Assembly: GCA_028870275.1 (NCBI GenBank)
Contig: JAGWPY010000057.1
Location: 1 to 64,000 of the forward strand
Length of the DNA stretch: 64,000 nt
Source of the DNA: Gammaproteobacteria bacterium
GTDB lineage: Bacteria; Pseudomonadota; Gammaproteobacteria; Steroidobacterales; Steroidobacteraceae
Reading direction: 5' to 3'
The position numbers and the translations under genes are program-made. The notes under the pieces were generated by a model. The model was not told the DNA's origin. It saw only the letters and a program-made list of their open reading frames with translations, and searched no databases. This document shows positions 10,311 to 14,764 of the stretch, one piece after another. Position 1 is the stretch's first letter. Each line of letters starts with the position of its first letter.

Positions 10311-12575
10311 TCAGTCGACCTCCAGCGGATCGACGTCGATCGACCAGCGCAGGCCGGAGGGCGCCTTGGTCGATTCGACCAGCGGCAGCCAGGCGGCGAG
10401 GAACCGTTGCAGGGCGGCCCGGTCGTCGGCCTCGATCAGCAGGTGCGCGCGAAAGCGGTCCGCGCGGCGGGCGACCAGCGCGCTCGCCGGACCGAGTATT
10501 CGCGGGGCCGGGTGGGCGGGCCCTCGAGCCGCCTCGGCACGGCCGCGCTCGGCGATCGCACGAAGGAATCGATCGAGGCTCGCGGTGTCGCGGGATTCGG
10601 CGCGAAGCAGGGCGAGCCGCGAGAACGGCGGCCAGTGAGCTTCGCGCCGCTCGGCGAGCGCGCGCGAGGCGAACGCCTCGTATCCTTCTGCGGTCAGCAA
10701 CGTGAGCAGCGGGTGCTCGGGGTAGTTCGACTGGATCAGCACCTCGCCGGCCCTTTCCGCCCGTCCGGCACGGCCGGCGACCTGCACGATCGTCTGCGCC
10801 AAACGCTCCGCCGCCCGATAGTCGGTCGCGAACAGTCCCTGGTCGGCATCGAGGATCACGACCAGGCTCACGTCCGGGAAATGGTGCCCCTTGGTGAGCA
10901 TCTGCGTGCCGATCAGGATCCGCGCCTCGCCGCTGTGCACCCGCGCGAGCACCGACTCGACGGCGCCGCGCGCCGCGGCCGTATCACGATCGAGTCTCGC
11001 CTGGGTCGCGCCGGGGAAGAGTCTCTCGAGGGTCTCCTCGACCCGCTCCGTGCCTTGTCCGACCGGCCGTAGTGGCTGTGAGCACGACTCGCAGGCGACG
11101 ATCGTGCGCCGCTGCGCTCCGCAGTGATGACAGCGCAGCGCTCCCTCGCGGCGGTGCAGGGTCAGTCGGGCGTCGCAGTGACGGCAGTTCGCAACCCAGC
11201 CGCAGGCCGTGCAGTACAGGCTCGGCGCATAGCCGCGCCGATTCAGGAACACCAGGACCTGGCCGCCCGCGCCGAGGTGGGTCTGCATCGCCGCGAGCGC
11301 GGGCTGCGAGAAGCCCTGCTCGACGCCATGCCGGCGCAGATCGATCACCGTCATGCGCGCCGGCCGGGCCATTCCGGCGCGCTCCGGCAAATCGAGCCGG
11401 TCGTATCGCCCGCGGGCGGCGTTCTCCAGGGACTCGAGCGAAGGCGTCGCCGAACCGAGGACGATGGGCACGCGGGCGCGTTGCGCCCGCAACACCGCCA
11501 GATCGCGCGCCGAATAGCGAAAACCTTCCTGCTGCTTGTACGAGGGATCGTGTTCCTCGTCGACCACGATCATCGCGAGATTGGCGATCGACGCGAACAC
11601 CGCGGAGCGGGTGCCGATGATCACGCGCGCCTCGCCATTGCGGGCGCGTTGCCAGGCGTCGCGGCGCTCGCGGTCGGCGAGTCCGGAATGCAGGATCGCC
11701 GGCTCCGTGTCGAACCGTCGGCGAAAGCGCTCGACCAGCTGTGGCGTCAGCGAGATCTCGGGCACCAGGACCAGCGCCTGGCCGCCACCGGCGATCGCGG
11801 TGGCGATCGCCCGCAGATAGACCTCGGTCTTACCGCTGCCGGTCACGCCGTACAAGAGGAAAGCGCGGTATCGCCCCTCTGCGGCCTGGATCGCGGCGAC
11901 GGCGCGGCCTTGCGCCTCGCCGAGTTCGATCGGCGGGGATCGGACGAGGGGCGCGCTCGGGCCGAGCGGAGCCTCCTGGCCGGACGGCGGCGCCGTGGCG
12001 GCTTCGGTCACGCGAATCCAGCCGCAGTCGCGCACGGCGCGCAGCAAGGACGGTGCGAATTGCGGGGCGAGTTCCGCATCGCTCCGCGGACCGTGCACGG
12101 CCAGATGGGCGAGCAGCGCCCGGCGGCGTGGTCCGCGCCGGTTCGACGGATCCGCGAGCTGCGCCGCACCGGCTTCCGTCAGTGCCCACAGCTGCGCCGC
12201 CGTCGCCGCCGCGGGCCGGCCCTCGCGCAGCCCCGCCGGCAGCGCGGCGGCGAATACCTCGCCGATCGGGTGACGATAGTATTCGGCGGCCCAGCGCAGC
12301 AGTTCGAAGGTGACCGGATCGAAGAGCGGCCGGTCGTCGAGAATCCGCTCCACCGCCTTGAGTTTCGCCGGAGCCAGGGCCGATGTGTCGGCGATGCCGA
12401 CGACGACGCCCACGCGCATGCTGCGGCCGAAAGGGACGCGTACCCGCACTCCGGGTTCGATGCTCGTCGCACGCTCCGCCAAGCCAGGCGCCGGTCCCCG
12501 GTAGTCGAAGGTTCGACGCAGGGGTGTATCGAGAGCGACCTTGAGGATCAGCGCTGAAGGGGATGCGTTTTCCAC
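10311..12575 (-). CDS. priA: Primosomal protein N' (replication restart helicase)
   Basis: 3'-5' DNA helicase that reloads the replisome at collapsed forks. Visible are the N-terminal DNA-binding domain ([19 protein letters not shown]), Walker [19 protein letters not shown] box [15 protein letters not shown], a zinc-binding cysteine array ([23 protein letters not shown]) and the helicase C motif [15 protein letters not shown]. The track start at 12677 adds a non-family extension. GTG at 12575, giving about 754 aa, aligns the N-terminus with relatives. Notably this GTG lies inside a DnaA-box-like sequence. Confidence 0.95.
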
Positions 12576-12590
12576 AATGCCTGTGGATAA
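12568..12590. promoter_or_regulatory. Inverted pair of DnaA-box-like sites at the priA start
   Basis: The plus strand has TTTTCCACA at 12568–12576 and TGTGGATAA at 12582–12590. The latter is the exact complement of the consensus DnaA box TTATCCACA; the former differs at one base. They form an inverted repeat (TCCACA…TGTGGA) with a five-base gap. The priA GTG codon is within the first box, so DnaA binding here could repress priA. The bases are plain in the sequence; the regulatory or replication role is inferred. Confidence 0.6.
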
Positions 12591-12877
12591 GTCTGTTGAG
12601 AAACCGGGACCAAATGACTTAAGTGCCGATCCTGTTTCGAGTCTGGTCGAATTGGCTGAAAAGTGCACGAAAATCATTAAAAATAATAATAATCATATGG
12701 TTACAAGATCCTTCGAAATCTTCGTCGAAATGTCCTTCGGAAGTATTACAGGCGCCGTCATCGGCCGTGTGCGTAATTCGCTGCTTCGGCCGGGAACTCA
12801 CGCGCAGTCAACCCCTCGGCCGGAGTTGCGTTTATAGCGCTGACGGGTTCGATCCGTCGTTGCATTAAGGACGCACG
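12591..12877. other. AT-rich intergenic island between priA and the ECF operon
   Basis: About 290 bases without a credible gene, clearly less GC-rich than the flanks. The core at 12671–12698 is almost pure A/T and includes an AAT trinucleotide run. Downstream are near-repeats of TCGAAAT and CTTCG at 12711–12740. A TTTATAGC hexamer near 12830 could serve as a -10 element for the sigma-factor operon. Both divergent promoters must lie here. Together with the adjacent DnaA-box pair it resembles the parts of a replication origin, but no other origin marker is present. Confidence 0.5.
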
Positions 12878-13492
12878 ATGGCGGGTTTTGGTACGCTCAC
12901 GCTCTCTGCCATGGGCTGGGACGGTCCCGCCAAACCTGGGGAGGCGGCACTGGATCGGACGCGCGAACTCGACAAGTTTCTGGCCGGGATCGAGCGACGC
13001 GCATTCCGCATGGCCGAGGTCGCGTTGCGCGACGCCGACGATGCGCTCGATGTCGTCCAGGATGCGATGCTCAAGCTCGTACGACATTATGCGGCGCGAC
13101 CGGCGGGTGAGTGGCGGCCGCTGTTCTATCGGATCCTCGAGAACGGCATCCGCGACCTGCAGCGGCGACGCACGATCCGTCGTCGGTTCATGGCGTGGCT
13201 GCCGGGGCCGGCGCAGGACCCGGACGCAGAGTGCCCCGATCCGATCGAGGCCGCGGCCGATCCGGGACCGGACGTGCTCACGCGGCTGCAGCGCTCGGAG
13301 GCGATCGAGCGGCTCGACGATTCGCTGAGCGCGCTGCCGGCGCGCCAGCGCCAGGCGTTCATGCTGCGCAATTTCGAGGGCCTGGACGTGGCGGAAACGG
13401 CCCGGGCGATGGGCTGCTCCGAGGGCAGCGTGAAAACCCATTATTCGCGCGCAGTGCACAGCCTGCGCGAGAGTCTCGGCGAGGTCTGGTGA
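12878..13492 (+). CDS. ECF-type RNA polymerase sigma factor
   Basis: A 204-residue sigma-70-family protein with only regions 2 and 4. Region 2 shows RRAFRMAEVALRDADDALDVVQDAMLK and DLQRRRTIRRRF. Region 4 has ALPARQRQAFMLRNFEGLDVAETARAMGCSEGSVKTHYSRA with a clear helix-turn-helix. The ATG at 12878 has AAGGA 6 bases upstream. The stop overlaps the next start. The order sigma – DUF3619 – DUF3106 is a recurring proteobacterial arrangement, with the second protein a plausible membrane anti-sigma factor. What signal it answers is not visible. Confidence 0.92.
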   Translation: MAGFGTLTLSAMGWDGPAKPGEAALDRTRELDKFLAGIERRAFRMAEVALRDADDALDVVQDAMLKLVRHYAARPAGEWRPLFYRILENGIRDLQRRRTIRRRFMAWLPGPAQDPDAECPDPIEAAADPGPDVLTRLQRSEAIERLDDSLSALPARQRQAFMLRNFEGLDVAETARAMGCSEGSVKTHYSRAVHSLRESLGEVW

Positions 13493-13905
13493 TGCAGACG
13501 GATCGTCCCACCGATTTGCAGGAGCGTAGCCGGGCGCTGTTCGAGGACAGTGTCGCGGCGGTCGACATGCGGGTGCGATCGCGCCTGACCCGGGCGCGGC
13601 ACGCGGCGCTCGAGGCCGCGTCCCGGCCGGCCCCGCGACTGCCGATTCCGACCCGTCGGACGCTCGCCGCCGCGGTCACGCTCGCCGGCGCGCTGGCGAT
13701 CGCGGTTTGGCTCGGCTGGCCGGCCGGCTCGCCTGCCCCGGGTCCGCTCGACGGTCGGGCTCCGGTCGAGGATCTCGACCTGGTCGCCTCGTCCGAACCG
13801 GGCAGCGGCGATGCGCTCGACATGATGCGCGAGGACGCCGATTTCTATGCCTGGGCCGCGGCCCAGGCATCGCCTGCGCAACCGACCGCGGATTCCGCCG
13901 GATGA
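13492..13905 (+). CDS. DUF3619-like membrane protein, candidate anti-sigma factor
   Basis: 137 residues. The cytoplasmic N-terminus (about residues 1–50) is charged (DLQERSRALFEDSVAAVDMRVRSRLTRARHAAL), then one membrane helix (LAAAVTLAGALAIAVWLGW, near residues 58–76), then a periplasmic acidic tail ending near ADFYAWAAA. That topology plus the one-base stop/start overlap with the ECF sigma gene suggests it restrains the sigma factor at the membrane. No zinc-binding HxxxCxxC motif is present, so it is not a ZAS-type anti-sigma. The family assignment rests on size, topology and context. Confidence 0.7.
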   Translation: MQTDRPTDLQERSRALFEDSVAAVDMRVRSRLTRARHAALEAASRPAPRLPIPTRRTLAAAVTLAGALAIAVWLGWPAGSPAPGPLDGRAPVEDLDLVASSEPGSGDALDMMREDADFYAWAAAQASPAQPTADSAG

Positions 13906-14186
13906 GGCCCACATGGAGTCGTACCGGCGCCTGGCTCGCGTGGTCTTCGCTCATCGCCTGTGCGGCGGCAGCCGCGGAGCCGCCGCCTGCCGCGACGCAG
14001 GGACCGCCGCCTACGGGTATGGCGCGCCCGACGGCGCCCGCAAAGCAGGACCGTCCGCCGGACGAGGCGCTGATCGAATTCCTGGGTGACGATGATGTAC
14101 CGGATGCGAAGTGGTGGGCCTTCATGAAGCGCGACTCCAAGCCTGCGCAGCAGACTGCTCCGGCCGCAAAGGACCTGACGCCATGA
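13902..14186 (+). CDS. Small exported protein of unknown function in the ECF operon
   Basis: 94 residues starting at ATG 13902 (ATGA overlap with the upstream gene); the track shows it only as part of a longer ORF. A signal-peptide-like hydrophobic stretch (WLAWSSLIACAAAAA) is followed by a Pro/Ala-rich part and an acidic conserved-looking end, EALIEFLGDDDVPDAKWWAF. The cysteine within the hydrophobic stretch is not in a good lipobox. Such small proteins with a LIEFLG segment occur between DUF3619 and DUF3106 genes; the role is unknown. The stop overlaps the next ATG. Confidence 0.75.
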   Translation: MRPTWSRTGAWLAWSSLIACAAAAAEPPPAATQGPPPTGMARPTAPAKQDRPPDEALIEFLGDDDVPDAKWWAFMKRDSKPAQQTAPAAKDLTP

Positions 14187-14764
14187 AGCGAGTGCGCGAA
14201 TTCGACCGGCTCCTGGCCCGCTTACCGGTGCTCGCGCTCGGCGGGCTGCTCGCGATGAATGGAACCGCGGCGGCGCAGAGCGCGTTCGATCCGACGCCCG
14301 CCGCACAGCCGACGCCGCCGGCCGCCGTCAACCCGGCACAGACACGTTCATGGTCATCGCTCTCGCCCGCGCAGCAGCGGTTGCTGCAGGCGTTTCACGG
14401 ACGTTGGGATTCGCTGCCGCCCGCGCGTCAGCGGGCGCTCGCGCAGGGCAGTGCCCGCTGGCTCGGGATGACGCCGGAGCAGCGGGCCCGAGCTGCGCAG
14501 CGATTCCGGCGATGGCGGGCCATGACCCCGCAGCAGCGCGAGCGGATCCGCGAGCGCTGGCGCAACTTCCGCAGCCTGCCGCCGCAACAGCAGCAGCGCA
14601 TCCGCGAGGCCTACCGGAGATTCCGCCAGATGTCCCCGCAGCAACGGCGCGCGTTGCGGCGTCAGTGGCGGCAGATGACTCCGGCCGAACGGCGCAATGC
14701 CCTGCGTTCGTTCCGGCCGATGCGCCCCATGAGGCCGATGCGTCCCATGCGCCCGCGCCGCTGA
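14183..14764 (+). CDS. DUF3106-like repeat protein
   Basis: 193 residues from ATG 14183 (ATGA overlap). An export signal (LPVLALGGLLAMNGTAAAQS) is followed by five or six degenerate repeats of about 20 residues on the pattern W..L.P.QR..L..F..RW (for example FRRWRAMTPQQRERIRERW). The end is a strongly basic run of Met-Arg-Pro repeats. The whole mature protein is rich in Arg and Gln and probably helical. DUF3106 proteins of this kind close the ECF/DUF3619 operon; repeated W/R/Q helices recall periplasmic CpxP/Spy-like or metal-resistance helical proteins only loosely. Function unknown. Confidence 0.8.
   Translation: MKRVREFDRLLARLPVLALGGLLAMNGTAAAQSAFDPTPAAQPTPPAAVNPAQTRSWSSLSPAQQRLLQAFHGRWDSLPPARQRALAQGSARWLGMTPEQRARAAQRFRRWRAMTPQQRERIRERWRNFRSLPPQQQQRIREAYRRFRQMSPQQRRALRRQWRQMTPAERRNALRSFRPMRPMRPMRPMRPRR

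Follow-up and report, generated by a model that had tools for sequence, protein, structure and literature searches.

What does an inverted pair of DnaA boxes do at the start codon of priA, the gene for the replication restart helicase, in a genome of the Steroidobacteraceae? The pair lies in a 64-kb stretch of DNA, here called the window, and an earlier note on its sequence had described the two boxes, the 5-base gap between them, the priA GTG inside one of them and a nearby A/T run, reading these as the ingredients of an origin or of a DnaA-regulated promoter. All four elements were found where it had placed them, and DnaA binding, the theme of its proposal, is well supported as a prediction from sequence. 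For reasons set out below, we think that the window probably carries one of the genome’s two sites of the DARS2 type (DARS2, DnaA-reactivating sequence 2), at which ADP-DnaA would be reloaded with ATP; DnaA reactivation, by analogy with DARS2, is the most likely function of the module. Beyond the elements already described, we identified a third core box, an IHF-like site, a Fis-like site, a distal DnaA box and a second copy elsewhere in the genome. The parts of the window copy and its flanking genes are:

12568 to 12576, plus strand: DnaA box I, TTTTCCACA, inverted relative to boxes II and III and overlapping the priA GTG
12582 to 12590, minus strand: DnaA box II, exact consensus TTATCCACA (plus-strand letters TGTGGATAA)
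12594 to 12602, minus strand: DnaA box III, TTCTCAACA, two mismatches, strongly conserved within the genus
12654 to 12668, minus strand: predicted Fis-type site at −78 from box II, GTGCACTTTTCAGCC, with one mismatch
about 12670 to 12698, no strand: A/T run between the IHF and Fis sites, interrupted only by two C
12691 to 12703, plus strand: predicted IHF-type site at −113 from box II, AATCATATGGTTA, which departs from WATCARNNNNTTR at one base
12768 to 12776, minus strand: distal DnaA box, TTACGCACA, one mismatch, 186 bp upstream of box II and oriented like it
10311 to 12575, minus strand: priA, replication restart helicase, flanking gene
12878 to 13492, plus strand: ECF-type sigma factor gene, divergent flanking gene

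Read toward priA, the order is distal box, IHF-type site, Fis-type site, box III, 3 bp, box II, 5 bp (ATGCC on the plus strand) and inverted box I. The module is intergenic, in the priA–ECF gap, with box I overlapping the priA start codon (GTG at 12575–12573, minus strand, codon 35 of the longest open reading frame). Box I has one mismatch to TTATCCACA, yet fits TTWTNCACA in full. The IHF-type site has the same orientation as in related modules and in E. coli DARS2, and the Fis-type site occupies the place where relatives repeat the exact Fis consensus. The A/T run, 80 bp away from the box I/II pair, we take for an A/T-rich arm belonging to the IHF site, in preference to an unwinding element. 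The ECF sigma factor gene is followed by short open reading frames, one with arginine, methionine and proline repeats (14111–14764), and this block (12878–14764) stands beside priA and pntB throughout the genus. No viral relatives of priA were found.

Boxes I and II were the sole two matches to TTWTNCACA in the window. Shuffled windows held 0.34 matches on average and reached two in 7 of 100 shuffles, so the single boxes alone are unremarkable. The genome-wide count that the earlier note had proposed as a check gave 13 matches across the 2.91-Mb assembly, and these formed two inverted pairs in total: the priA copy and one other, on contig C167. Base composition predicts 3.8e-6 exact pairs per genome, or 2.7e-4 allowing one mismatch. 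The second copy is fully intergenic, in the hemW–rpmE gap, and reads TTATCCACA-GGATT-TGTGGAAAA; read toward its gene, the priA copy is TTATCCACA-GGCAT-TGTGGAAAA, and the two core pairs differ in the spacer only. The IHF, Fis and distal sites of the rpmE copy are all exact, and the window copy is the weaker of the two (two mismatches in box III and one in each of the three other sites). The source genome also encodes the partner proteins DnaA, Hda, IHF (judged on IHF-alpha) and a Fis homologue with 56% identity to E. coli Fis across 73 residues.

The pair, with at most one mismatch, was present in 88 of 98 genomes (the source genome and its relatives), and a reversed control pattern gave 0. Most same-genus genomes had exactly two pairs; at one mismatch none was found in G016 (99% complete), G011 or G017. 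Within the genus the layout is hemW–[module]–rpmE and ECF sigma–[module]–priA, with both copies oriented alike relative to the gene. The conservation of boxes I and II within the genus owes something to the selection of loci. The modules also carried a third, weaker box at −12 from box II. Almost every rpmE copy had its distal box at 187–194 bp; one had it at 202, and in three it did not turn up at one mismatch. In the priA copies of the genus it stood at 186–187 bp (180–181 or 193 in the order’s other families). In one further Steroidobacteraceae locus, L256, the module again lies between the ECF gene and priA, and its distal box is likewise TTACGCACA. The rpmE copies of the genus also share a conserved inverted motif, ACCTAC...TAGGTCA (1695–1732 in locus L014; −155 to −118), between the distal box and the IHF site; it is absent from the priA copies and is possibly another binding site.

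Further afield, the core was found in 264 of 363 good genomes of the class Gammaproteobacteria, where the reversed control again gave 0, and in 31 of 68 sampled genomes from other classes of the phylum. Scanning public genomes for the distal box together with the core returned at least 118 stretches, among them 112 from Pseudomonadota; the named taxa included 88 Gammaproteobacteria and 13 Betaproteobacteria. A few of the matches listed by the scan fall in Bacillota and Thermodesulfobacteriota. Five genomes of family f186, which belongs to another class (G494, G497, G475, G481 and G527), had four to eight DARS-like cores each, which is unusually many. Two full modules stood in tandem, within about 0.4–1.4 kb, at four loci (L182, L183, L237 and L246), upstream of priA in the last three; L183 and L237 are from Betaproteobacteria.

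The spacing inside the module was constrained in wider sets too, and it is there that box III, the distal box, IHF and Fis are tested more cleanly. Among the 123 matches listed by the public scan, the distal distance peaked at 189–191 bp (66 of 123); a secondary mode at 177–178 bp abuts the lower distance bound of the scan and was not used as proof of helical phasing. These 123 modules had not been selected for spacer content such as IHF, and among them the IHF consensus was found exactly, in one orientation, at −112 to −108 in 56, against 2.8 expected; with at most one mismatch, 90 IHF hits among the matches listed fell within one 5-bp bin. The Fis consensus recurred at −78 from box II in the listed modules. 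An independent set of 27 loci, picked on the core alone, gave the same positions: the distal box lay at −174 to −191 in 13 and elsewhere within 600 bp once only, IHF at −108 to −115 in minus orientation in about 15, and an exact Fis site at −80 to −76 in 9.

We compared the module with the E. coli DARS sequences, taken from NC_000913. DARS1 and DARS2 both have the core III-3-II-5-I, identical in spacing and orientation to that of the module; equal spacing with a reversed box I is a feature that both DARS sites share (PMC5742627), and DnaA ChIP-seq signal has been reported on these double boxes (PMC11317965). In DARS2 (rppH–mutH region), IHF lies on the box III side at −99, oriented as in the module (about −110), an agreement within about one helical turn. 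A consensus DnaA box stands at −197 in DARS2 but is reversed, whereas the module’s distal box, near −190, faces like box II. The flanking genes differ from those of DARS2, and the module lies near the origin. DARS1 (bioD–uvrB region) has a consensus box II and the same core but, unlike the module, lacks an IHF match near −110 as well as a strict distal box. The DARS2 subtype is marked by an IHF site on the box III side at a set distance, which the module has, and by Fis sites (FBS2–3) beyond IHF, which it lacks: the exact Fis match of DARS2 lies beyond IHF at −137, while the conserved Fis-type site of the module lies between IHF and the core, and we therefore claim a DARS-type site, not the strict E. 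coli DARS2 subtype. Kasho et al. showed DARS2 activity to be sensitive both to the IHF and Fis sites and to where they lie, with a 10-bp shift of Fis, or of IHF outward, doing less harm than a 5-bp shift (PMC4245941); the one-turn variation in position between the module and DARS2 fits these effects.

On this comparison, boxes III, II and I would make up a DARS core, with DnaA molecules facing each other head to head on II and I. IHF would introduce a bend about 110 bp upstream of box II, Fis would bind between the bend and the core, and the bend could return the distal DnaA box, about 186 bp off, toward the core. By analogy with E. coli, we infer that ADP-DnaA assembled on the module would lose its ADP, be released and reload ATP; the reloaded DnaA could then fire oriC, and the site would raise ATP-DnaA ahead of initiation.

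The module combines consensus DnaA boxes with an IHF-type site and an A/T run, as does an oriC of the dnaA–dnaN type, and could on that ground be a main or secondary replication origin with the A/T run as its unwinding element. We give this reading almost no credence. The source assembly is too fragmented to place a skew minimum, and in a complete relative (G086, 3.105 Mb) the cumulative GC-skew minimum was at 2,697,404 and dnaA at 2,686,141; the modules, at 2,595,972 (rpmE) and 2,789,347 (priA), flank both and lie about 90–110 kb away from them, so the GC-skew check suggested for an origin went against it. The window itself has no skew flip, and module flanks in other long contigs mostly have no clear flip (G073 and G001:C75 are ambiguous). 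In the source genome, the dnaA–dnaN gap holds a near-consensus, oriC-like box cluster with an A/T stretch, whereas the module has few, strictly spaced boxes and no array. An oriC identity was ruled out by the skew and by this cluster, and with it the origin half of the earlier proposal. Eight of nine other single-contig genomes of the class had one core 0.07–0.3 Mb from dnaA and another further out, and in the ninth (G165) both cores were about 1 Mb away; the close symmetry around the origin seen in G086 is therefore not general. Nearness to the origin of one copy, which is frequent, recalls E. coli datA, which lies fairly near the origin (PMC4585315). A datA-type site would act in the opposite sense, with ATP-DnaA gathering on the IHF-bent module, its ATP being hydrolysed and DnaA being switched off after initiation. 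E. coli datA is IHF-dependent, with two forward boxes 162 bp apart and a forward-plus-inverted pair, and the module resembles it in its distal forward box, IHF site and forward-plus-inverted pair. The datA pair has a gap of 3 bp and no third box at −12, whereas the modules have 5 bp and the third box, as DARS sites do. The pair gap and the absent third core box rule out datA itself, and we regard a datA-type activity as unlikely.

That box I covers the priA GTG suggests another role, in which DnaA sitting on the start codon would repress or tune priA, and likewise rpmE, in step with the replication cycle. In the genus and in several other families the module lies upstream of priA or rpmE in a single orientation, and the region between the Fis-type site and box III (12603–12652; −62 to −13, with CGAAAC..., GGCACTT and TCCCGG) is well conserved in the priA copies of the genus, more so than in the rpmE copies, and may be the priA promoter. 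A scan for sigma-70 promoters and terminators gave no match, although it may miss promoters of the host organism. The spacing between module and gene start ranges from about −8 to +107 bp for priA and from 95 to 246 bp for rpmE, while the internal geometry stays fixed. Neighbouring genes also vary by lineage, and the module is found beside many unrelated genes with its geometry kept; a role mainly as a priA promoter is therefore improbable, and, of the regulatory half of the earlier proposal, a side effect on priA expression stands as possible because box I covers the start codon. Still less probable is passive titration, in which strong boxes near the origin soak up DnaA and leave its nucleotide unchanged. 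The module does contain high-affinity boxes, and DARS and datA serve as titration loci in E. coli (PMC12371093), but titration requires a number of boxes and not fixed positions of IHF, Fis and a distal box. We also considered whether the two modules arose when an inversion split an ancestral priA–rpmE intergenic region, since in E. coli priA and rpmE lie side by side and diverge. The idea is made doubtful by the two copies, which have the same orientation to their genes, and by the E. coli priA–rpmE gap, which has no such module.

DARS sites have been described for E. coli and close species (PMC4245941, PMC8682772, PMC5742627), and one review places DARS2 conservation in beta- or gamma-proteobacteria near E. 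coli. Our claim of novelty is limited accordingly: the literature consulted, the founding paper (Fujimitsu 2009) aside, reports DARS2 conservation only near E. coli. If the modules work as DnaA-reactivating sites, recharging of DnaA at dedicated sites would be general in Gammaproteobacteria and reach Betaproteobacteria. With its boxes, IHF and Fis in fixed places, the module is a defined target on which the mechanism can be tested in bacteria other than enterics, and models that make initiation timing depend on where such sites lie could be tested with the copies that flank the origin. More tentatively, and with considerable doubt, the module may represent an ancestral, class-wide form of box–IHF–Fis–core control of the DnaA nucleotide in Gammaproteobacteria, often with two copies per chromosome, from which the E. 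coli DARS pair would be a derived and rearranged version. With its different order of parts, the module could even be a two-way switch, reactivating or inactivating DnaA according to IHF and Fis.

Near several of the hemW–rpmE modules (less than 20 kb away; L070, L075, L081 and L084) we observed a gene for a second protein with 28–34% identity to part of PriA (130–180 residues), which is probably another helicase.
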